This document shows positions 3,432 through 22,548 of a stretch of DNA of 22,611 nt, piece by piece; position 1 is the first letter of the stretch, and each line of letters starts with the position of its first letter. This DNA comes from a virus. The stretch lies in the IMG/VR virus record IMGVR_UViG_3300028840_000775, positions 1-22,611 of that record; one strand, given 5' to 3'. The position numbers and the translations under genes were made by a program. A model generated the notes under the pieces. The model saw only the letters and a program-made list of their open reading frames with translations, was not told where the DNA came from and made no database searches.

Positions 3432-4047
3432 ACTCTCTCTCCGCCTGCTCAGGATATAGCTGCTGAATCCCCAGCCGCTTCAAGTATTTGTTATGGTTCG
3501 CTATGGCGTTCTTAGCATCCCCTCGGCCTGCGTAGAACTCTCCCACTGCGTAGTACACTGCCGCCCACTGGTAATCGTCCCGAAGCTTTATGCGCTCCTC
3601 ATCAGACGTGTACCTGTCCGGTATGACAACCGCCTCTATCTCAAGAATGTCGCTACTCGTATCGGCCATAGGATGAAACCCTACAATGTCCACGCCGATC
3701 ATGAAATAACGCTCAGGAGGACCGGAATTGTGCAGCCAACGGGGGTTATATTGAAGTAGCCAGTTAAAGTCCACCTGATCCAGCCGTCGCCGCCTGCCGA
3801 ATATCCACACGTTCGTAAGCCACGCTATGTCATCCTGCCGGAAGTCCAGCCGGTAGAAATGATGGTCTGCCTTTAGAGGCAAATGGTATGTTCTCTTACC
3901 CGACCCCGTAAGCATGGATATCTCTTCTATGGCGTCATTCAAGCTCTCTCGGATAGGGGCCATGCCCGTGTCGTCGTCACTGAAAACGTCAGGAGAAGAA
4001 GTATCCTCCCCTATGAGTTCCAGCACATGCGTTTCAAGCGTGTTCAT
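3373..4047 (-). CDS. Head-tail adaptor protein (gp11/tail tubular A-like)
   Basis: A 224-residue protein that fits the phage adaptor family, which forms the ring joining portal to tail. The N-terminal half has an Asp-rich loop and a helix (MAPIRESLNDAIEEISMLTG) followed by a beta-rich region with LDQVDFNWLLQYNPRW and a 'P-x-[RY]-Y-x-x-G-x-D-I-x-G-F-x-P' strand pair. The C-terminal third is helical (DDYQWAAVYYAVGEFYAG, then a repeated Asn/Lys helix). Its ATG overlaps the TGA of the upstream sulfotransferase gene as ATGA (4047-4044), which shows how tightly the accessory block is stitched to the tail module. It lies directly ahead of the second neck protein and the nozzle, as expected in a podovirus-type cluster. 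Confidence 0.7.
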   Translation of the reverse strand: MNTLETHVLELIGEDTSSPDVFSDDDTGMAPIRESLNDAIEEISMLTGSGKRTYHLPLKADHHFYRLDFRQDDIAWLTNVWIFGRRRRLDQVDFNWLLQYNPRWLHNSGPPERYFMIGVDIVGFHPMADTSSDILEIEAVVIPDRYTSDEERIKLRDDYQWAAVYYAVGEFYAGRGDAKNAIANHNKYLKRLGIQQLYPEQAEREYGLGRSSDPYKAVSERSRW

Positions 4048-4763
4048 CCTAGCAAGATATCCTTGGCTCTGTTAATGTACTCAAGATCAGCAAATGATAG
4101 CACGTCCCCGTAGCCACCCACCTTGCCTTGTCGTATCTTCGCGCTGTCCGGGTTATCAGACGTAGGCGCAAGAGGGCTTCCCATATATTCAGGTTGCCGA
4201 CTTAACTTCTGCATCTTCTTGAAGCTATGCTGTTCCACGGTTTCCTGCAAAAGCTCTGTATATACGTTAAAGCCTATCCAATGAAGCATCTCTCCAAAAG
4301 CGCACAGGCAACTCTCCTGTAAGTCCTCATAGGATATCTTGAATAGGCTCTTGAAGTTGCTCTCATTGTCTTTCATCATACGGTAGAAGCAGCATATCTT
4401 AGCTATCCCGTGCTTCGGGTCGCGCAACATATCTGAGATAGTGCCTTCGTACGGAGGACACTCCCGATGTTTCATGTGGTAATAGTAAGACACCAGCGTA
4501 TCTTCTATCCCCCTGGTTAGAAACACCGTAGGGGCGCATAGCAATGGCGTTAAGTCTGCCTGATGATAGAAACCCCTGCTCTCTCTTGGCTCTGTGCCAA
4601 AGTGCGTCCACTCAGACCCCCATGCTCCCTGTTTCATCTGCTGATACACATCGTATAGCGTCGTGTACTTCAGATTCAGCAACCGGGCCAAGTAATAGTG
4701 ATACATGAAGCATAACCACGTTCTCCCCGACTTCGGGTAGCTGATGAAATACTTCGCAGGCAT
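4044..4763 (-). CDS. PAPS-dependent sulfotransferase (Sulfotransfer_1 type)
   Basis: A 239-residue enzyme predicted to move a sulfonate group from PAPS to a hydroxyl or amine acceptor, probably a sugar. The three family hallmarks are in the right order: the 5'-phosphosulfate loop YPKSGRTWL at residues 9-17 with the catalytic Lys11, the 3'-phosphate segment TRGIEDTLVSYYYH at 83-96 with Arg84 and Ser92, and the C-terminal RQGKVGGYGD at 211-220. The length is slightly short for the family but nothing essential seems missing. No signal peptide is visible, so it acts in the host cytoplasm and must use host PAPS, since no APS/PAPS genes are present here. It starts two bases after the upstream stop without a clear Shine-Dalgarno and overlaps the adaptor gene by ATGA. 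The acceptor is unknown. Confidence 0.9.
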   Translation of the reverse strand: MPAKYFISYPKSGRTWLCFMYHYYLARLLNLKYTTLYDVYQQMKQGAWGSEWTHFGTEPRESRGFYHQADLTPLLCAPTVFLTRGIEDTLVSYYYHMKHRECPPYEGTISDMLRDPKHGIAKICCFYRMMKDNESNFKSLFKISYEDLQESCLCAFGEMLHWIGFNVYTELLQETVEQHSFKKMQKLSRQPEYMGSPLAPTSDNPDSAKIRQGKVGGYGDVLSFADLEYINRAKDILLG

Positions 4764-4765
4764 AG

Positions 4766-5074
4766 TTATGTTTGCCTAAACCAGATATGCACCTTCCCGT
4801 GAGACAACGAATCCAGCTTAAACTTGTGGATCGGCATATACGGAGAGAAAGGGCCAATCTGCCATGCTACCGCCCCAAAGCCTAGCTGATTCGCGACGGG
4901 CTGTATCGTACCCACCAGATTCGCGTCATTGACTGTCATAGCAACCGCACTATCATGGGTAATGTCCCCAGCATCGTCGATCCACTGGATAAGCATTATC
5001 AGCTTGCCTTCGTCCTCCCAGATAGTTCCCACGGTATCCAGCACGTAGGGGTTGCCATCCGTTTGATTCGCCAT
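4766..5074 (-). CDS. Hypothetical 102-residue protein between the sulfotransferases
   Basis: I do not recognise a family. The protein (MANQTDGNPYVLDTVGTIWE...) seems beta-rich, with alternating hydrophobic residues (KLIMLIQWID, AVAMTV, FGAVAWQIG, KVHIWF), as in small virion or attachment-accessory proteins. I chose the ATG at 5074 because GGGGG lies five bases upstream (AAGGGGGATTCATG). A TTG at 5089 in the same frame would place that site inside the coding region. It follows a 72-base gap that may fold, and ends two bases before the sulfotransferase start. Its place between two sulfotransferases suggests it belongs to the accessory block, but its role is unknown. Confidence 0.7.
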   Translation of the reverse strand: MANQTDGNPYVLDTVGTIWEDEGKLIMLIQWIDDAGDITHDSAVAMTVNDANLVGTIQPVANQLGFGAVAWQIGPFSPYMPIHKFKLDSLSHGKVHIWFRQT

Positions 5075-5146
5075 GAATCCCCCTTGCAAGTGGCGGCAGA
5101 CCGTGGATAGGGCACGGCCAATTAAGGGTTTCCCACCGCCTTAGTT
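5075..5146 (-). other. Short intergenic region with nested inverted repeats
   Basis: No open frame is visible in these 72 bases. Two inverted repeats are nested: GGCGG/CCGCC arms at 5136-5140 and 5092-5096, and inside them CCGTG/CACGG arms at 5113-5117 and 5101-5105 with a 7-base loop. There is no T-run after the outer stem, so a rho-independent terminator is unlikely. An mRNA-processing or stabilising structure is possible. It ends in the AAGGGGG ribosome-binding site of the gene at 5074. Confidence 0.35.
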
Positions 5147-5449
5147 TTATGGGCCGCTTACAATCCACTCATTGTAGGCGTGTAGAACCTGTCCGCCCTC
5201 ATGAAAAGCATTCTCGTTCATTGCCTCAAGCTTGTCTATCCGCCTGATCTCATCCGTGGCGTCTACACTCGCAGACATGGGTTCGCTCGGAACATGCGTG
5301 ATATTGATAGCAAAAGGCTCCACGCAAGTCCCTGAACTCGAAGTCGTGACCGAAGCAAGAGTCCCAAACCGGATCACCGCCTGCCCGTTCTTCTCTCCGT
5401 TGACCACCGGAATGCGCTTCATGAATACTGTACGTCTTGTGATAGCCAT
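5147..5449 (-). CDS. Hypothetical 100-residue protein
   Basis: No family recognised. The N-terminus is basic (MAITRRTVFMKRIPVVNG), the middle is beta-like and Ser/Thr-rich (around ASVTTSSSGTC), and the C-terminal third contains a charged helix (DEIRRIDKLEAMNENAF). The start is well supported: GGAGG lies five bases upstream (GGAGGAAACATG). The gene overlaps the end of the upstream sulfotransferase by 31 bases, more than the usual 1-4 bases seen elsewhere here. It could be a small virion component, since similar mixed beta/coil proteins are common in phage structural clusters, but the sequence does not prove this. Confidence 0.7.
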   Translation of the reverse strand: MAITRRTVFMKRIPVVNGEKNGQAVIRFGTLASVTTSSSGTCVEPFAINITHVPSEPMSASVDATDEIRRIDKLEAMNENAFHEGGQVLHAYNEWIVSGP

Positions 5450-6108
5450 GTTTCCTCCATTCTGTTATAGCCTAACAACTTAAAATCATCCTCGTAGAAC
5501 TGATATATAGGCCATCCCTCGCCATGCTGGTAATACTCAAGATATGGCTCGTGACCGCTCTTCCATTCGTTTTTCCACTCAAGCTCTTTCATTGGCATAC
5601 GCAGGGTCTGAAGCAACCGGTGCCAATCCTGTTCCATGTTCTCATAATGGCCTATAAAGTCCATCATGCACTCACCGTTAATGTGTGTATAGTGCGTCTG
5701 GGGCTGACAGTGCATGGCTATGTTCGGCCAGTTGATAATCTCGAAGTCCTTGGTAATCGTGGCCCGTTTTCTGTAACCCGTAGGAATCCCCTTTATGAAG
5801 TCTTCCCACTCAAACCCGAAATGATGACAAAGGCTCACCGCCCTATCGTAAGGGTTCCGCACGAAGCTAAATATGAAGTAATCATCTATACCGTCCTTGT
5901 GGGAAAGATTCTGCAAAAAGCCCATCGCAGCTTCGCCGTGGACAGTCTGTACCCCTAGATCTCTGAAAGCCTGGTGCATAGCCCTGGATGCGCACTTGGG
6001 GCATTGATTGAATATCCACTTTCCCGCAGGGCTGATTATAGGAAAGCCTCTTGTCCTGTACCCGAGTCCTATCAGGTATGAGATAAACATCTCGTTCCGA
6101 GTCATCAT
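5419..6108 (-). CDS. Sulfotransferase family protein (Sulfotransfer_2-like)
   Basis: A 229-residue protein with the layout of the carbohydrate sulfotransferase branch that has a Pro-Lys-Cys loop. Residues 36-44 (CPKCASRAM) match the 5'-phosphosulfate-binding loop with the key Lys38. Residues 82-92 (FVRNPYDRAVS) match the 3'-phosphate-binding motif, with Arg84 and Ser92. Several Trp- and Tyr-rich segments follow, and the C-terminus ends in YNRMEETW. It is not similar enough to the other sulfotransferase (4763-4044) to be a recent copy: the loops belong to different subfamilies. The ATG forms an ATGA overlap with the upstream gene and has GGAGG eight bases upstream. The second codon is also ATG. 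The substrate is unknown, but neighbouring glycosyltransferases suggest a glycan. Confidence 0.8.
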   Translation of the reverse strand: MMTRNEMFISYLIGLGYRTRGFPIISPAGKWIFNQCPKCASRAMHQAFRDLGVQTVHGEAAMGFLQNLSHKDGIDDYFIFSFVRNPYDRAVSLCHHFGFEWEDFIKGIPTGYRKRATITKDFEIINWPNIAMHCQPQTHYTHINGECMMDFIGHYENMEQDWHRLLQTLRMPMKELEWKNEWKSGHEPYLEYYQHGEGWPIYQFYEDDFKLLGYNRMEETWLSQDVQYS

Positions 6109-6713
6109 CCCACGCCCCTCCTCTGGTAATCAATAGACGGCATATAAGCGGTGTTTACTTTCAAGCCCGTCAGCTTCTTGACCTGAATATAATGCTGGAG
6201 CTTCTGTATGGCCCAGTTATACTGCTCACAGTAATCAGGAGCCGGTCCCTGAATATGCCCATCATTGTTCTCGTCCCAGTCAAAGCCGTGATTAACCTGT
6301 AACAAATCGGTTAAGAACCCGTCAGAAGCAAAAAACACCCGCCCGTGTATCCCTACGTTACGGAGCCTGCTTTGCTCGTTCCTGAATATGAATACAACGT
6401 CATCTGTGAACTTAGCTATATCGTCAAATTGCACAACGGGGCTTACGACATTATGGCCCCGAATCACCGGCTTTATGTGCATGTCGTCGTGCATAAAAAG
6501 CGTATCACCGCCATTCCAGAGAGTTTTCAGGTAGTAATCATACGCCCCAAACTCTAGGCCCCGGTTCTCTCGTTCATGATAGTTGTAAGGGTAGCCGTCT
6601 CTGTCCGCCCAGGGCTGATTCCCAATGACAGAGACCGGATGCTTCTTATGCACTTGCCTTAGAAGCCGCATAAAGTCCGGGTTATAGTACCACCCGCATA
6701 CGCATACATTCAT
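6105..6713 (-). CDS. Putative glycosyltransferase (GT-A-like, 202 aa)
   Basis: The protein begins MNVCVCGWYYNPDF, a first beta strand like those in glycosyltransferases. It then has NRGLEFGAYDYYL at residues 50-62, resembling the 'N-x-G-x-[ED]-x-G-A-[YF]' motif of rhamnan-synthesis and related transferases, followed by MHDDMHI at 74-80, a plausible metal-binding Asp-Asp motif. The C-terminal half includes a Tyr/Gln-rich helical region. The start at 6713 is chosen because it forms ATGA with the upstream stop and has GGAG upstream. A longer in-frame reading back to 6776 has no such support and would overlap the previous gene by 67 bases. The protein is short for a glycosyltransferase, so acceptor recognition may be minimal or supplied by a partner. 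Confidence 0.6.
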   Translation of the reverse strand: MNVCVCGWYYNPDFMRLLRQVHKKHPVSVIGNQPWADRDGYPYNYHERENRGLEFGAYDYYLKTLWNGGDTLFMHDDMHIKPVIRGHNVVSPVVQFDDIAKFTDDVVFIFRNEQSRLRNVGIHGRVFFASDGFLTDLLQVNHGFDWDENNDGHIQGPAPDYCEQYNWAIQKLQHYIQVKKLTGLKVNTAYMPSIDYQRRGVG

Positions 6714-8095
6714 CTCGGCTCCTTTTTGATAAAAACGCAGTCGCTCACAATAAGCATGTCCTTTTCCGCCACCCACGCCATGAACTCGGGTCTTTCCATA
6801 AAGACATGCTCTATATTAGAGTCGTCGCGCAAACGCATAAAGTTTGTCATCAGGTTGCCACCAACCGCCAGAGAATCGTATATCCTGTCCAGCGTTTCTC
6901 GCCAGTCTTTCAAGTGCTCAATAGAGTCCAGGCAGATGCAATAATGAAGACTATCAGGCTCAGGCCAGCCAAATGTAACGTTTGTAAGACCATGCTTCTT
7001 GCAGCGCCATTTCAGAAACTCGTATGCGCAAGCACCGTCCACATCCACGAAATAAACGTGCTTGCCGCGCTTTGCCAACTCAAAGCCTACGACACCGCAC
7101 CCGCAGCCAAAGTCCATACCGACCAGCTTGGTCGGTTTGAGTTCTTCAAGCAGAGTTGCCATGGTCAGCTTAGGAAACGCAGCATGATGGAACACTACTT
7201 GCCGCTGTAGCTGTGCTGGACCCATATGCGCATAATACTCTCTCGTTCCGAGGCCGTACTTCTTCTCCAGCTCAAGACTCATCCAGCCATATTTCTCAAA
7301 ACCCTCATTGAATGCCTTGTCCATGTCCCGTTCGCTAATGCCAAGATACTCAGCAGCATCCGTTTTCAGCTTGTAGAGGATATTGTCCGTCTTCCAAGAA
7401 AGCTCCTGCTCTGTGCCGGTAAAGAAATCGTCCTTGCGCGAAAACTGGTTCTTGTTCCTAGACGTTATGACAACACGATCATTCATGACATGCCCGATCT
7501 CAAGGGTAGGATCGTTATACACCTTGAAACCAGCATCCCTGGCCTTCTTGCAAATCTGAACGTCCGTGCCGTAGGTGAACTCAGGCTCAAACCAGGGAGG
7601 CCCGAGCTTGTCAAAGACTTTCATCTTGATGAGCATACATCCACCGCCCTGTACGGCACGTTCTTGTATAGACTCTCCAAGGTCAAGCTCTGATATGAAG
7701 AAAGGGTCTCCCTGCTCGTTCTCGTCCATAATAACGGGCTTGCCATGACCCCCTCGCTGATAGTACACTGGCCCTACGATATCCACGTCATGCTCAAGGA
7801 GCTGCTTGAGAAAGTCATACGCCTCCGCACCCTTGCTAGGATCGCCTGAACTCTCGTTAATGTCTATGATGTGGTCATCGTCCATCATGAGTAGCCAGTC
7901 TGCCGCTACCTGAAGAGCCACTTCTACGATGTTATTCCTTGCCCTGAATTGCTCTGACTTACCCTTAATGCAAAGAAAGAACTCGTAGTCTGTGTATCTT
8001 CTGCCCAAGTGAAAAGCAAACCGCATATAGTCTTCCAGCGTCTCGGGCGGTACGCCGGCATAGCACGGTATGCCTATACATATCCTTTCCTTCAT
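6710..8095 (-). CDS. Glycosyltransferase-methyltransferase fusion protein
   Basis: A 461-residue two-domain enzyme. Residues 1-240 form a family-2-like GT-A domain: ICIGIPCYAG strand at 5-14, then LLMMDDDHIID at 68-78 with the metal-binding Asp triplet at 72-74. Residues about 320-460 form a Rossmann methyltransferase: SAM-binding VGMDFGCGCG at 325-334, an acidic FVDVDG at 349-354, and CLDSIEHL at 388-395, the typical post-motif loop. It probably adds a sugar and methylates it or a neighbouring sugar. The start at 8095 sits seven bases after ATAGGGGG, whose TAG is the upstream gene's stop. An in-frame start at 8152 would overlap that gene by 49 bases and is rejected. It overlaps the next gene by ATGA. 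Another fusion of the same design lies at 17693-16338. Confidence 0.85.
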   Translation of the reverse strand: MKERICIGIPCYAGVPPETLEDYMRFAFHLGRRYTDYEFFLCIKGKSEQFRARNNIVEVALQVAADWLLMMDDDHIIDINESSGDPSKGAEAYDFLKQLLEHDVDIVGPVYYQRGGHGKPVIMDENEQGDPFFISELDLGESIQERAVQGGGCMLIKMKVFDKLGPPWFEPEFTYGTDVQICKKARDAGFKVYNDPTLEIGHVMNDRVVITSRNKNQFSRKDDFFTGTEQELSWKTDNILYKLKTDAAEYLGISERDMDKAFNEGFEKYGWMSLELEKKYGLGTREYYAHMGPAQLQRQVVFHHAAFPKLTMATLLEELKPTKLVGMDFGCGCGVVGFELAKRGKHVYFVDVDGACAYEFLKWRCKKHGLTNVTFGWPEPDSLHYCICLDSIEHLKDWRETLDRIYDSLAVGGNLMTNFMRLRDDSNIEHVFMERPEFMAWVAEKDMLIVSDCVFIKKEPR

Positions 8096-8099
8096 AAAT

Positions 8100-8107
8100 C
8101 CCCCTAT
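8100..8107 (-). promoter_or_regulatory. Ribosome-binding site ATAGGGGG fused to the upstream stop codon
   Basis: On the minus strand the junction reads CCGATAGGGGGATTTATG. The TAG is the stop codon of the CmcI-like gene and the GGGGG serves the fusion enzyme starting at 8095. This site decides the start, because an earlier in-frame ATG or alternative start has no such site. Confidence 0.7.
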
Positions 8108-8877
8108 CGGATTCTCTCTAAGTAGCCCTCCGGATTGAGGGTTACGAACCACTTTTCCCGTTGCCGGTCTATGGTAAAGTCCTGGTTTCCCGCTAAGAAC
8201 TTATGCACGGCCAGATACGCCCCTGGTCTTTCATCGTTAGGCTTACCGGACGGTATAAACTCCCCAAGCAGTGTATCCTCTACAATGAGATACTGACCCT
8301 TGGTAACTAGCGGAGCATAGGTGTTAAGTACCTTCAGGGTGTGCTCATACTCGTGGGTGGTATCTTCAATGACCATAACCCTATCTTCAGGTCTAATCAG
8401 CGAGGCTACTTCGTCAAACACCTCGCAAGCGTCCCCCTGAACCCATTTAATGCCAGGATACTCACGGGCCTTGTCGTAAAGATAGCCATGCTCAATATCC
8501 ACCCCTATCACACCCCTGGCGTCGGGGATCTCCCCGCCCAAGAGTATGTCCCTGAGAAACATTGTAGAACCGCCTGCTTGATTCCCAAGCTCAACAATAA
8601 CCGTAGGCTTACGGGCACATATGATCTCCTGGAATATCCAAAGATCGTTAGGCATCTTACAAACATGCACGCCCTTATAGCCCGTAAGCGTTCTCACTAC
8701 GTCCAAGATCATACCGAGATACTGAGCCATAGGCATATGAAGGTTGTCCTTGTTTAGCCAAGTGCCATATAGCTCCCGAAGCTCTATCAAAGACACCATG
8801 CGGTAGCCGTCGGGCACCGGGTCATCCTTACTGCCTATCTTAACCTGCTGGAAGGGAGATATCTGACTCTCAGGCAT
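8104..8877 (-). CDS. CmcI-type SAM-dependent methyltransferase (cephalosporin hydroxylase family)
   Basis: A 257-residue protein of the family named after CmcI, whose members are mostly sugar or secondary-metabolite O-methyltransferases. Visible marks are the helix MPNDLWIFQEIICARKP around residues 75-91, the SAM-binding segment VIVELGNQAGGS at 93-104, the acidic GVDIEH at 125-130 and VIEDTTHEYEH further on, which has the Asp and His residues expected near a metal-assisted active site. The likely start is ATG 8877, six bases after GAGGGGGTG. A TTG at 8892 is in frame but lies on the wrong side of that site. It overlaps the zinc-ribbon gene upstream by 8 bases and ends inside the next gene's ribosome-binding site. 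Sugar O-methylation fits the glycosyltransferases downstream. Confidence 0.8.
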   Translation of the reverse strand: MPESQISPFQQVKIGSKDDPVPDGYRMVSLIELRELYGTWLNKDNLHMPMAQYLGMILDVVRTLTGYKGVHVCKMPNDLWIFQEIICARKPTVIVELGNQAGGSTMFLRDILLGGEIPDARGVIGVDIEHGYLYDKAREYPGIKWVQGDACEVFDEVASLIRPEDRVMVIEDTTHEYEHTLKVLNTYAPLVTKGQYLIVEDTLLGEFIPSGKPNDERPGAYLAVHKFLAGNQDFTIDRQREKWFVTLNPEGYLERIR

Positions 8878-9103
8878 CAGGCACCCCCTCAAATAAGGCT
8901 ATGAACTCCGGGTCAATGTTTTCGCGTTTCAAAGCCTCCATCTCTTCTGAACTAAGCGTAAGCACGTTGCGCATACGTCTGTTCCCGCATTTCAAGCACA
9001 TACCATGCTCCCAGATAGTCTCTCGTAACACTATCTTTGCGCAGTCAGTACACCGCACTACCGGATCATGAAATACCTTGTTGTCCTTATCGTACTTATC
9101 CAT
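8870..9103 (-). CDS. Small zinc-ribbon protein (77 aa)
   Basis: Four cysteines are arranged as two CxxC knuckles: Cys18/Cys21 and Cys36/Cys39, fourteen residues apart, which is a classic zinc-ribbon spacing. The C-terminal half is a short acidic helix (SSEEMEALKRENIDPEFIALF). The protein probably binds zinc and another macromolecule, but the sequence does not show whether that is DNA, RNA or protein. The start is set by GATAGGGGG six bases upstream. It is the first full-length gene after the hidden Cys-rich mini-gene and opens accessory block B. It is one of five small Cys-rich proteins in this window. Confidence 0.75.
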   Translation of the reverse strand: MDKYDKDNKVFHDPVVRCTDCAKIVLRETIWEHGMCLKCGNRRMRNVLTLSSEEMEALKRENIDPEFIALFEGVPDA

Positions 9104-9334: not shown

Positions 9335-9787
9335 TTACAGCGCCTTGATAAACGCTGCCATTGTTGTAGTTGTCCATGATGAATAAGCCGCCAGGGCAAA
9401 TCCCATTGTCCGGTAGTTCAGTGTACCATTCGGATCGTGCCCTTCTGCGCAAAATCCGCCAGCCAATGCAGGCCGCAGACCAGTATGTGCCACAATCACA
9501 TCATCCGATGTGCAAGCACGAACCCTGACTGCTGAATGATACCCGTACACCTGCACAAGCCCGTAGGTATTATGGGCAATGGTTTCTGCTGCCACTCCAG
9601 CAACCGAAACACCAAGACCGGTTGTCATACATGCCGTCGAAGGCAAGGTTACGCCCACCCCGTCCGCGTCCGCGCTGGCATCCCACTCTACAACGTACCC
9701 GTTTGCAAGGGACGCTGTGGAATAGCTGTTCTTCACGACAACGAAGACCTTCTCTGGGTCACTCCTGGAAACACGTCTGAATAACAT
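9335..9787 (-). CDS. Decoration-like virion protein, paralogue B
   Basis: A 150-residue protein about 84% identical by my hand alignment to the gene just upstream (10255-9800), differing by 23 substitutions and one missing residue near position 112. Both start MLFRRVSRSDPEK and end MAAFIKAL. The sequence is Gly-, Ala- and Val-rich with alternating hydrophobic residues, suggesting a compact beta protein. Placed directly after the major capsid gene, it is likely a capsid decoration or head-surface protein, but I recognise no named family. This copy has extra cysteines (two where paralogue A has Gly or Ala). The start follows AAGGAGG by seven bases. A strong terminator lies just after it. Confidence 0.7.
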   Translation of the reverse strand: MLFRRVSRSDPEKVFVVVKNSYSTASLANGYVVEWDASADADGVGVTLPSTACMTTGLGVSVAGVAAETIAHNTYGLVQVYGYHSAVRVRACTSDDVIVAHTGLRPALAGGFCAEGHDPNGTLNYRTMGFALAAYSSWTTTTMAAFIKAL

Positions 9788-9799
9788 CTCTACACCTCC

Positions 9800-10255
9800 T
9801 TACAGCGCCTTAATGAAAGCCGCCATTGTGGTAGATGTCCAGGAAGTCCAGCCTGCAAGGGCAAACCCCATCTTCTGATAGTTCAATGTGCCGTCCGGGT
9901 CGTGGCCCTCAGCGCACCATACTCCACCTGCCAACGGGGGCCGTAAACCGGAATGAGCGACAATCGCGTCCGCAGACGTAGCAGCACGCACCCTGACCGC
10001 TGAGTGATAACCATATACCTGAACCAAGCCATAAGCTTCATGAGCAATGGTTTCGGTGGCTACACCAGCAACCGAGGCACCTAGCCCCGTGGTCATGCCT
10101 GCCGCAGAGGGCTTAGTAACCCCTACACCGTCTGCATCCGTGGTTGCGTCCCACTCCACTACATAGCCATTGGCAAGGCTGGCGGTAGAATAGCTGTTCT
10201 TAACCACGACAAAGATTTTCTCCGGATCACTTCTCGATACTCGTCTAAATAACAT
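9800..10255 (-). CDS. Decoration-like virion protein, paralogue A
   Basis: A 151-residue protein directly after the major capsid gene, with a close paralogue following it. It carries the same layout: basic N-terminus, a VVEWDA segment at about 32-37, a Gly/Ala/Val-rich core with YGLVQVYGYHSAVRVRA, and a C-terminus rich in Trp, Thr and Ser. Third-codon positions differ widely between the two copies while the protein stays alike, so the duplication is old and both copies are kept by selection. A capsid decoration or head-surface role is inferred from position. The start has AAAAAGGAG upstream, and that site may be masked by a small hairpin (10258-10286). Confidence 0.7.
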   Translation of the reverse strand: MLFRRVSRSDPEKIFVVVKNSYSTASLANGYVVEWDATTDADGVGVTKPSAAGMTTGLGASVAGVATETIAHEAYGLVQVYGYHSAVRVRAATSADAIVAHSGLRPPLAGGVWCAEGHDPDGTLNYQKMGFALAGWTSWTSTTMAAFIKAL

Positions 10256-18642: not shown

Positions 18643-18650
18643 CCCCCTAT
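18643..18650 (-). promoter_or_regulatory. Ribosome-binding site ATAGGGGG fused to the upstream stop codon
   Basis: The junction reads GAGGATAGGGGGAAACATG on the minus strand. The TAG is the stop codon of the Thr/Ser-tract gene, and GGGGG serves the Cys-rich mini-protein at 18638. Confidence 0.7.
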
Positions 18651-19876
18651 CCTCGTGGTTTTGGATTAGATACTCCCATTAGTAATATGTCCGGCCTAAA
18701 CGCCGGAGCAACAGTAGAACTGGTAGTGCTTGTCGTGGTTGTACTCGTCGTTGTTGTGGACGTACTTGTAGTTGTCGTGGTGGTGCTTGTTGTCGAAGTT
18801 GTGGTTGTGCTGGTCGTAGTTGTCGTAGAGCTTGTCGTTGTCGTTGTGGTGGATGTCGTGCTCGTAGTCGTGGTTGTGGTCGTTGTAGAAGTCGTAGTCG
18901 TCGTTGTGCTTGTAGTCGTGGTAGTCGTACTCGTGCTTGTGGTTGTACTGGATGTTGTAGTCGTTGTCGTTGTCGTAGAACTGGTCGTAGTAGTAGTTGT
19001 GCTTGTTGTAGTAGTTGTCGTGGTGGTACTTGTTGTTGTAGTGGTAGTGGTTGTTGTCGTACTTGTTGTAGTCGTAGTCGTAGACGTGGTAGTGGTCGTA
19101 CTTGTAGTGGTAGTCGTGGTCGTGGTAGTGCTAGTGGTTGTCGTCGTGGTTGAGGTCGTAGTGGTGGACGTGGTAGTTGTGGTCGTTGTCGTGGTGGTGG
19201 TGGTGGTCGTGGTGGTGGTGGTTGCTGCTGCCTCGGCCTTGAAGCATAGGACTTCCGCTACATAATAGCCGCCAGCCGATACGTTGATCTCGGCTTCTTC
19301 GCCTGATAGTGTCGAAGCAATCGCCCTATAGAACGAACTCAAACCGCGATGCGTGTTAATGTCCGTAACCGTGGCATCGGCCCCGGTCCCAGACGGAATC
19401 TCTTCGAAGCTCGGCTCCTGTGAGGCATTGCTCGATTGGAATGCGGCCCAGCAGAAATTATTCGAGCTTGTAGATGTCAGGTCGCTCGCGGTTTCCCACG
19501 GCGAATTTTCAAACCCGCCAGATCCAGTCGCATTGTCTACATAACTGGCTGTGTCACCATCTGGGTCAAGCACTCCGTAACTTGCAACACGCGCCCCGTT
19601 GCCTGCGCCAAACGTAACCGTGATTTCAATAGTCGTAGAGTTTGCCGCAACTACATAGCCTTGTCTAAGCCGAGCCACACCTTCGCTGAGTTCTGTGAGC
19701 AATGTATAACTGCCGTTGTCATCGTCCTCAATGTCACTAATAGAAAACGAAGAGATTGACCCGGCAGAAACCACCACAACATCGCCCGCAGTCACACTCA
19801 CGTTGCTGAATGTCAACGTGGCAGTGGTGCCATAGCTGTCATCGCTCCCAGTTGCTCTTGGTGCGTTCCAGGCCAT
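18647..19876 (-). CDS. Virion-like protein with a 170-residue Thr/Ser-only tract
   Basis: A 409-residue protein. Residues 1-218 look like a soluble beta domain with alternating hydrophobics and Ser/Thr/Gly (GDVVVVSAGS, TTIEITVTFG, YYVAEVLCFK), with an immunoglobulin- or jelly-roll-like feel, but I recognise no family. Residues 219-388 contain only Thr and Ser, chiefly Thr. The last 21 residues (VAPAFRPDILLMGVSNPKPR and one Gly) resume a normal composition. The start follows TAA directly (TAAATG) with no clear ribosome-binding site, so it is probably coupled. The tract would be an extended linker or, if modified, an O-glycosylated mucin-like stalk. A glycosyltransferase begins about 200 bases downstream. 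A head or tail fibre is the likeliest role, but this is inference. Confidence 0.65.
   Translation of the reverse strand: MAWNAPRATGSDDSYGTTATLTFSNVSVTAGDVVVVSAGSISSFSISDIEDDDNGSYTLLTELSEGVARLRQGYVVAANSTTIEITVTFGAGNGARVASYGVLDPDGDTASYVDNATGSGGFENSPWETASDLTSTSSNNFCWAAFQSSNASQEPSFEEIPSGTGADATVTDINTHRGLSSFYRAIASTLSGEEAEINVSAGGYYVAEVLCFKAEAAATTTTTTTTTTTTTTTTTTSTTTTSTTTTTTSTTTTTTTTTSTTTTTSTTTTTTSTTTTTTTTTTSTTTTTTTTSTTTTTTSSTTTTTTTTSSTTTSTSTTTTTTSTTTTTTSTTTTTTTTSTTSTTTTTTSSTTTTTSTTTTSTTSTTTTTTSTSTTTTSTTTTSTTSSTVAPAFRPDILLMGVSNPKPRG
18713..19222 (-). repeat. Low-complexity Thr/Ser-coding tract (510 bp)
   Basis: Every codon in the tract is Thr (ACN) or Ser. On the plus strand it reads as a run of GTN triplets. 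All four Thr codons are mixed and the order is not a simple tandem copy, so the tract is kept at the protein level rather than by DNA slippage alone. Read in another frame, it gives a poly-Val frame on the plus strand that is a shadow. Confidence 0.9.
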
Positions 19877-20215: not shown

Positions 20216-21646
20216 CTATCTTATCCTAGCATACGCAGCGGCCATAGATATCCCATACCGCTTCGCATACTCCTTTGCCCGAATATACTTGTTCCTTTCC
20301 GCCGTGAAGCTCCCAGGCGGGATAACGACTCTCTTCTTGGGCGCAAGTGGCCGAGATAGCAAGGAATAGCGGGTGCAGTCGTACCCCTCGTCTGGCTGGT
20401 CGGTATCACAATCCTCGGGATTCTTGGGGTCTTCGTAAAGGTTCTGAAACTCTCTCCACCAGTTCTTGCAGGACTTGAATATCACGAACTGGGGCCGATC
20501 CTCCTCGTCAAGCATTAGCCTCTGGTGGATTTGCTGTTTCCCCCGGATACGGTCGTTATCGGCTTTCATGAAGTAAAGCCTTTCCTTTCCAGCATCCTCT
20601 ACAAAACTAGGGCCATGGACCTGATTGCTGCCCTTTATCTTTGTAGGACTCCAGCAGGCGGGGTCTGCTACCCGATATTTCATCTTTTCGCGCTCTATGT
20701 CAACAATTTCTCGACATATCTCCGTGTTGGTCTGCCTCACCCCTAGATTCGGGTCATCACCCTTCATGCCGTACTTCTCTCGGTAGAGGTAGATAACCCC
20801 GTCAAAGTCCTCCGCAAACCATAACGCGCACCAGGGACGGGCATACCCCCAGTCAAACGTCATCCAGTGCGTCCATTCCGGCGGAATAGGAAAATCATCG
20901 CAACCGTGGACCCTCTGACTTAATTCCGTGAAGACCTGTCCCTCAAATACGTCCCAGACTCCATGAAGAAGCCGCAATTTCTCGACTTCCGGCAAAGCCT
21001 CAAGCCTTTGAATGTAAAGAGGGTCATTTTCGACCAGGGTAGGGTTATCTGTTACCTTGGCGGGGATAAATACGCGACTTTGGCCCGTTATCGGGTCAAT
21101 ATAGGGCTTTTTAGGGTTAGAAACGTCTACAAACCGCCCTTTTACCCACATATGCCCGATATTTCCGGGGTTTGTGGTGGATAATATCTGCGTGGGGATC
21201 TCAGGCACCGTGGATCGCACCCGACTGTGCATGAAAAGGTACTGAGACTCGGTAAACATCGTCAATTCGTCAAAGCCGCAACGGTGTATTTCCTGACCGT
21301 GATACCGATACTTGTCGTTCTCATGCTGCATGTGACCAAGCTGAATAATCGCCCCCGAAGGAAAGTGCCACCTGTGCTCAGTCGCCTTATAGTTAGCGCT
21401 GATACTCACCTGCGGATACCACTGCTGGCACCTGTCAATAATCTCCTGAAGCTGCGGGAAGGTTCTGCGCAAGATAAGAGCCTTGTACCGAGGATGCTGG
21501 ACGTACCGAGCCTCCTCCATGATTAGGCAGTCCGTCTTGCCCGGACCAGCAGCGCCCCCGAAGAGTACCTCAAACTCCGACCGGGAGCAAAACTCCTCCT
21601 GCGGACCTGGGTGCGGTCGCCATGCTACGTCAGTCTGCTGGCTGAT
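20216..21646 (-). CDS. terL: Terminase large subunit, non-canonical AUC start
   Basis: A 476-residue motor that packages DNA into the capsid and cuts it. Residue numbers count from the proposed AUC. Walker A GGAAGPGKT is at 30-38, Walker B with CGFDELT at 123-129 (Asp126, Glu127), and the coupling motif STTNPGNIGH at 156-165. The nuclease half has FDWGY near 264-268 (Asp265) and VADPACW near 326-332 (Asp328), as in an RNase H fold. The open frame upstream of Met43 (21520) encodes the conserved WRPHPGPQEEF region and Walker A, but holds no ATG, GTG or TTG before the stop at 21664-21662. The only start with a good site is AUC at 21646, four bases after GGAGGA. A start at 21520 would delete Walker A. 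The frame overlaps the zinc-ribbon gene by 17 bases. Confidence 0.9.
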   Translation of the reverse strand: MSQQTDVAWRPHPGPQEEFCSRSEFEVLFGGAAGPGKTDCLIMEEARYVQHPRYKALILRRTFPQLQEIIDRCQQWYPQVSISANYKATEHRWHFPSGAIIQLGHMQHENDKYRYHGQEIHRCGFDELTMFTESQYLFMHSRVRSTVPEIPTQILSTTNPGNIGHMWVKGRFVDVSNPKKPYIDPITGQSRVFIPAKVTDNPTLVENDPLYIQRLEALPEVEKLRLLHGVWDVFEGQVFTELSQRVHGCDDFPIPPEWTHWMTFDWGYARPWCALWFAEDFDGVIYLYREKYGMKGDDPNLGVRQTNTEICREIVDIEREKMKYRVADPACWSPTKIKGSNQVHGPSFVEDAGKERLYFMKADNDRIRGKQQIHQRLMLDEEDRPQFVIFKSCKNWWREFQNLYEDPKNPEDCDTDQPDEGYDCTRYSLLSRPLAPKKRVVIPPGSFTAERNKYIRAKEYAKRYGISMAAAYARIR

Positions 21647-22010
21647 ATCGTCCTCCGCTGCCTATACCTACTTTCCTGCCGCAAATCATACACCGAAAAA
21701 ACTTGTCTACCCGAATCCAACCTCCAGGCTTGAAATCCCGCTCGCATTCAGGGCATGGCTTTCGTGACGTTACTGGATGATGATGCTTTTCATGCGCTGC
21801 CATTAGCTGACTCGCACGCCGAAACTCGCAATCCGCAGAATCAGCTATGCACCTACGAACCCAGTCCCCCAGATTATCCAGCGTCAGCGCTGTCCATCCG
21901 CCATGATATTCTTTCGCGCCCTCATGGTCCTTAATGCTCTTTCCAATTACATCAAGTATGAAATTCTCAAGATCAACCTTAGTCCATCCCTCCGGTAATT
22001 CCTCCATCAT
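21630..22010 (-). CDS. Zinc-ribbon protein ahead of the large terminase (126 aa)
   Basis: The N-terminal half is helical (DLENFILDVIGKSIKD, then a Trp/Arg region). Residues 73-78 have a His cluster (HEKHHH), and two CxxC knuckles follow at Cys86/Cys89 and Cys107/Cys110, seventeen residues apart. That makes a zinc ribbon or finger, possibly for DNA. I see no HNH nuclease signature. The start is ATG at 22010 after GATAGGGGG, with a second ATG as codon two. Its 3' end overlaps the terminase start and its stop is TGA at 21632-21630. Position suggests a packaging accessory, perhaps affecting DNA recognition. A reading frame shifted forward by one base would lead into the terminase. Confidence 0.7.
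   Translation of the reverse strand: MMEELPEGWTKVDLENFILDVIGKSIKDHEGAKEYHGGWTALTLDNLGDWVRRCIADSADCEFRRASQLMAAHEKHHHPVTSRKPCPECERDFKPGGWIRVDKFFRCMICGRKVGIGSGGRYQPAD
21651..21656 (-). promoter_or_regulatory. Shine-Dalgarno of the large terminase
   Basis: GGAGGA on the minus strand is followed by CGAT and then ATC. This is a perfect match to the anti-Shine-Dalgarno at a suitable distance from the AUC, and it lies within the coding region of the zinc-ribbon gene. It is the main evidence for the proposed AUC start. Confidence 0.6.
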
Positions 22011-22012
22011 AA

Positions 22013-22020
22013 CCCCCTAT
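22013..22020 (-). promoter_or_regulatory. Ribosome-binding site ATAGGGGG fused to the upstream stop codon
   Basis: The minus strand reads CCGATAGGGGGTTATG. The TAG (22019-22017) is the stop of the hidden two-helix membrane gene, and the GGGGG serves the zinc-ribbon gene at 22010. Confidence 0.7.
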
Positions 22021-22181
22021 CGGTTAGCCTTACGACCATACAATATCAGCCAGAGAATCCCCCACCACCCGGCAGTAATCCATAACCCTACCCGCGTATC
22101 AGGAAATAGCACCCCTATCCAAAGAGCTACAGCGATACATACCTCAAGATAACCCTTATCACGTTCCCTTGCCCTTTCCAC
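22017..22181 (-). CDS. Hidden two-helix membrane protein (54 aa, GTG start)
   Basis: A GTG at 22181 starts a 54-residue frame inside the end of the small-terminase gene (23-base overlap), ending in the TAG that forms the next ribosome-binding site. The N-terminal ten residues are charged (VERARERDKG). Two hydrophobic stretches follow, LEVCIAVALWIGVLF (about 12-26) and VGLWITAGWWGILWLILYG (31-49), separated by a short PDTR turn. The C-terminus is basic (RKANR). GAGGG lies five bases before the GTG. This is the layout of a small class-II-holin-like or other membrane protein. It fills what would be a 148-base gap. The family is not recognised. Confidence 0.7.
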   Translation of the reverse strand: MERARERDKGYLEVCIAVALWIGVLFPDTRVGLWITAGWWGILWLILYGRKANR

Positions 22182-22548
22182 TTCCACCCTCGATAACCTC
22201 CAACGCTACGTCAGGCTTCTTCTCCGGTAAATACACCGCCGGACCCTCTCGCTTCGTGCTCACGTCTATCTTCTGCTCAGACTCCTTCACCGTCATGGTC
22301 CCTAAATACGTGTTCCAGATGGCAGACTTGACGTGCGGAGGCGTCTCATCCAAAAAGCAGAGCCGAATCATCGCTTTATTCAAGGATTCACCATATTCCT
22401 TGGCTAAATCCTCCGCATCCTGCGTGATCTGCTTCTTTAACGCCGCAGAAATGTCCCTTGGCTGCAACTTCGAGGCCGTAGAACCCGGTTTACGCCCGGC
22501 TCCAGCCCTTTTCCCGCCGCCACCCTTCATTCCCTTCTTGCCTGCCAT
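22159..22548 (-). CDS. Putative terminase small subunit
   Basis: A 129-residue protein that probably recognises phage DNA for packaging. The N-terminus is Lys/Gly-rich with GKRAGAGRKPG (residues 13-23), a pattern common at the start of small terminases and similar DNA-binding proteins. A helical middle (DAEDLAKEYGESLNKAMIRL, then PPHVKSAIWNTYLG) resembles an oligomerising helical core, and the C-terminus is Gly/Lys-rich. Position just ahead of the large terminase supports it, although two small genes intervene. The start has AAAAAGG upstream. The call rests on position and composition, so a homing or other DNA-binding protein cannot be excluded. Confidence 0.55.
   Translation of the reverse strand: MAGKKGMKGGGGKRAGAGRKPGSTASKLQPRDISAALKKQITQDAEDLAKEYGESLNKAMIRLCFLDETPPHVKSAIWNTYLGTMTVKESEQKIDVSTKREGPAVYLPEKKPDVALEVIEGGSGKGKGT

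Follow-up and report, generated by a model that had tools for sequence, protein, structure and literature searches.

A phage large terminase gene lacking a canonical start codon, with an AUC as candidate initiation site

The terS-terL region and its surroundings

We examined the large terminase gene (terL) of an uncultured virus in a window of 22,611 bases. The window is the entire IMG/VR virus record, a single metagenome contig in a single copy. On the minus strand the gene order is terS (small terminase subunit), a small putative membrane protein gene, a zinc-ribbon-like ORF, and then terL (Table 1).

The TerL frame is bounded upstream by TAG (21664–21662), with a second TAG at 21670–21668, and ends at a stop at 20216. 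Read from the first TAG down to 21520, it contains no ATG, GTG or TTG before Met43 (numbered from AUC 21646), and the Walker A motif (GGAAGPGKTD) precedes Met43. A preliminary description of this DNA had noted the bounding TAG, the lack of a canonical start until Met43, and an AUC at 21646 lying four bases after a perfect GGAGGA. On reading the sequence we found its frame coordinates to be correct and the AUC and GGAGGA to be placed as described. The GGAGG core (21656–21652) is spaced 5 bases from the AUC. Reading TAG as a sense codon was considered and rejected; a TGA at 21688–21686 closes the extended frame, and there is no canonical start after that TGA.

Table 1. Features of the terS-terL region (window coordinates)
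Feature	Position	Strand	Remarks
terS, small terminase subunit	22159..22548	-	Homology to the gene beside terL in relatives (about 30–36% identity, many loci)
Small putative membrane protein ORF	22017..22187	-	56 aa; GTG start at 22187; overlaps the end of terS
Zinc-ribbon-like ORF	21630..22010	-	126 aa; CxxC...CxxC; overlaps the TerL frame
GGAGGA, Shine-Dalgarno-like	21651..21656	-	4 nt before ATC
ATC, candidate start codon	21644..21646	-	Sole single-mismatch relative of ATG before the Walker A lysine
TerL	20216..21646	-	476 aa if AUC 21646 is the start; open frame reaches 21661
GTA, rival start position	21626..21628	-	1 nt past the zinc-ribbon stop; matches the canonical starts of relatives in alignment; no Shine-Dalgarno
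First in-frame ATG (Met43)	21518..21520	-	Downstream of Walker A

Sequence comparison indicates that the interval between terS and terL is a variable spot. Four relatives (L012, L035, L036 and L038) carry a different small gene there. Relatives of the zinc-ribbon-like ORF were absent from IMG/VR (peptide patterns) and from the fetched relative loci, and none was significant in phages. A 16-nt direct repeat (14/16 positions) links the terL start region (21624–21639) with the end of terS (22205–22220). We give this repeat no weight as a recombination junction; repeats of equal quality arise elsewhere by chance.

Downstream of terL, about 5.6 kb of extra genes (20167–14597) separate it from the portal gene, a pair that is adjacent in relatives. 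These genes encode two glycosyltransferase-like proteins, a hexapeptide transferase and a long Thr-rich protein. In the 409-residue protein at 18647–19876, a very long tract consists mostly of Thr, with Ser interspersed; its ACN repeats also leave a Val-rich ORF open on the opposite strand. At 4044–8892 lies a gene cluster for two sulfotransferase-like proteins, a methyltransferase-domain protein and a CmcI-type methyltransferase, which suggests surface-glycan or virion modification. Directly after the major capsid gene lie tandem duplicated genes (9335–9787 and 9800–10255) of about 150 residues each, with nearly identical N-termini (MLFRRVSRSDPEK).

TerL and its relatives

The preliminary description had called the gene a large terminase, an identification borne out by profile matches, full-length alignment and retained catalytic motifs. 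TerL matches phrog_979 (E 9.6e-57) and Pfam Terminase_6N (1.6e-12, above the curated cutoff), and its family profile matches the solved large terminase 5oe8 weakly (E 2.8e-05). It aligns over its full length with relatives at 50–64% identity, the nearest being 62–64% identical. Walker A (GGAAGPGKT), the FDE motif (D131/E132) and the nuclease residues D270, D333 and D428 are all kept, and most of these Walker and nuclease residues fall in invariant alignment columns. TerL shares Walker A, the FDE Walker B, the nuclease aspartates and the terS-terL order with the large terminases of phrog_979 and phrog_2. It differs from them in having no canonical start, in the two small genes that stand between it and the terS homologue (22548–22159), and in the glycan-modification genes that separate terL from the portal gene.

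We compared 33 codons before Met43, from a conserved Trp to the Walker A region, with those of ten relatives. Each comparison gave 8–16 identical, 12–18 synonymous and 4–8 nonsynonymous codons, a pattern that places this segment under purifying selection as judged from codon alignments. Since nonsynonymous changes are few, the N-terminal part is evidently translated and required, and we do not find Met43 credible as the start. TerL therefore has essential N-terminal coding sequence without a canonical in-frame start.

Terminase-based scans of viral contigs and genomes yielded some 24 distinct relatives whose N-terminus could be read. Every one of them has a canonical start (ATG, GTG or TTG) 1–17 codons before the conserved Trp. 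In most, there is a 4-nt overlap between the terL start and the upstream stop, or the two lie no more than a few bases apart; this layout suggests that their terL is translationally coupled to the upstream gene, usually that of the small terminase. Because two small genes stand between terS and terL here, the usual coupled start is gone. A search with a DNA pattern spanning the start retrieved no near-identical copies of the region.

Two TerL relatives carry intein-like insertions at Walker A. In one (L025:381-1560; IMGVR_UViG_3300014613_000197) the insertion lies inside the motif (YGG / PLTLDT...NGCVVTKN / SAGPGKT) and carries a LAGLIDADG-like domain. Its first residue appears to be Pro, not Cys, Ser or Ala, and for this reason it may be a class 3-type intein. 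The other (L046:244-1560; IMGVR_UViG_3300037308_000174) has a different insertion (GGGK / MLAVDTPIPTPSGW...VPTHN / SDALIM) that begins with an unusual residue and matches LAGLIDADG weakly.

Initiation at AUC 21646 and its alternatives

TerL has a near-cognate codon, ATC 21646, with a suitable Shine-Dalgarno sequence, and the GGAGG spacing of 5 is within the range of the phage's own genes (4–9). In the window, GGAGG at 4–9 nt precedes 6 of the 29 gene starts as against 8 of 1016 internal near-cognate codons (0.8%), a ~26-fold preference. The Shine-Dalgarno energy at 21646 is −9.5 kcal/mol, better than that of most genes of this phage. Compared by anti-Shine-Dalgarno pairing energy only, some 3% of positions equal this site. 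GGAGG is also frequent, the terL strand having 41 copies in 22.6 kb, four of which fall in a 140-base stretch at the start region. Folding of the start region leaves the GGAGG partly paired in the minimum-energy structure (−13.8 kcal/mol) and is not decisive. The Shine-Dalgarno site is thus suggestive, not overwhelming. A start at AUC 21646 would give 8 residues before the conserved Trp, within the family range of 1–17, and would overlap the upstream stop by 17 nt; most relatives start within a few bases of that stop. By these sequence features, 21646 is the best-placed initiation site. That translation truly begins there, at an AUC, we hold only tentatively, as a reading that falls somewhat short of an even chance; the likelihoods given here and below are matters of judgement.

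About as likely is a fault in the contig or a change private to it: the real phage would start TerL at a canonical codon here or close by, and the contig, a metagenome contig in single copy, would differ from it by a base-calling or assembly error or by such a change. All relatives have a canonical start nearby, and the ATC is one base from ATG and has kept a strong Shine-Dalgarno sequence, as expected had an ATG stood there. On the other hand, the remaining genes of the window look intact (no frameshift is needed to align terS, portal or terminase with relatives), and the window contains no Ns. The preliminary description had proposed asking whether relatives share the missing start, and had taken canonical starts in them as evidence against an AUC. 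The missing start is not conserved: all of the roughly 24 distinct relatives use ATG, GTG or TTG near the aligned position. Conservation of a near-cognate start is a supporting feature, not a strictly defining one, and these relatives stand at some distance, the nearest being 62–64% identical to TerL and none having the zinc-ribbon gene. The claim that TerL starts at AUC has accordingly fared unevenly. The intact gene, the lack of a canonical start and the choice of 21646 as the best site speak for it, but the identity of the codon is put in doubt by the canonical starts of all relatives.

Ribosomes might instead re-initiate in a coupled manner at GUA 21628, directly after the zinc-ribbon stop, as in relatives that start one base past the stop. 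Three relative loci, of which two or more are distinct, show such a gap of +1 between the upstream stop and terL, and the position and the predicted N-terminus (xAWRPHPG) match those of relatives (MSWRPHAG, MTAWLPHPG). However, GUA has two mismatches to AUG, and a Shine-Dalgarno sequence is absent (−0.5 kcal/mol). We prefer 21646, judging the Shine-Dalgarno sequence to count for more than the expectation from position, and we regard initiation at the GUA as quite unlikely. Neither codon is canonical, and so a contig error or private change, whether at 21646 or at 21628, is a serious rival. The preliminary description had offered as another alternative a +1 frameshift leading from the zinc-ribbon gene into terL. 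It was right that the two frames are related by +1 and that the UGA is followed by C; the zinc-ribbon ORF ends in GAC TGA C, a weak stop as in prfB, with the Shine-Dalgarno-like GGAGGA upstream. In prfB the Shine-Dalgarno sequence lies 3 nt before the last sense codon. Here the GGAGGA is about 15 nt before that codon, and by our assessment of pairing a +1 shift gives poor re-pairing at every codon of the stretch open in both frames (the last sense codon would shift from GAC to ACU). The slippery codon and closely spaced Shine-Dalgarno sequence of a prfB-like site are therefore missing at GAC UGA C. Neither a zinc-ribbon-terminase fusion nor the zinc-ribbon gene itself occurs in any relative examined, and a programmed frameshift yielding such a fusion is disfavoured to the point of being highly improbable. 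There is an equally slight chance that the terminase is non-functional or is made from Met43 without its N-terminus; Met43 is the first canonical start, but its product would not contain Walker A, and the codons before it are held by purifying selection.

The best explanation in our view is initiation at AUC 21646. It starts from an intact, selected frame, the lack of a canonical start and a well-placed Shine-Dalgarno sequence. The base would truly be C, and the site would be picked by the perfect GGAGG five bases upstream, giving a functional terminase. Ribosomes on the overlapping zinc-ribbon gene would help by leaving the site accessible or by initiating again close to it. As to the evolutionary route, small genes probably entered between terS and terL and parted terL from a start overlapping the terS stop. 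An AUC start would then yield low but sufficient terminase. It is unlikely, we think, that this essential phage motor gene is kept on an AUC behind a strong Shine-Dalgarno sequence inside the preceding gene in such a way that its output depends on IF3 and on zinc-ribbon translation.

Known non-canonical starts and implications

AUC starts are rare but known. Streptomyces infC begins with ATC and is misannotated by gene callers (PMC5472188). It resembles the candidate terL start in using a near-cognate codon that differs from AUG in the third base only, but many bacteria use the infC start (IF3; AUU or AUC), which is autoregulatory, whereas the start proposed here is that of a phage terminase, is not conserved, and shows no evident regulation. 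The AUU and AUA starts of S. aureus come with extended Shine-Dalgarno motifs and give roughly 10–30% of AUG expression (PMC13009471). Two of these, cvfC1 (AUU) and ccpN (AUA), likewise place a weak start codon behind a strong Shine-Dalgarno sequence (PMC13009471); they are conserved and demonstrated by ribosome profiling and reporters, whereas the terL AUC is deduced from one contig. The GTC start of Streptomyces sigR, also misassigned by gene callers (PMC5472188), has two mismatches to AUG and was demonstrated experimentally; it is nearer to the rival GUA than to the AUC. In E. coli, Shine-Dalgarno sequences are located 5–9 nt upstream and enhance re-initiation, and IF3 suppresses non-canonical starts (PMC2268962). 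Our search of the literature, which covered few subscription journals, found no phage terminase with a non-AUG start or a frameshift fusion.

Even if true, the AUC start adds one more example of a phenomenon already known. As the natural start of an essential phage gene, such an AUC would be unusual. Should the contig be in error instead, the locus would exemplify how single-base contig faults can imitate rare biology. If the AUC start is real, standard gene callers would report this terminase without its ATPase P-loop. Phage classification makes use of the terminase, and annotation would be distorted wherever such a start is missed.
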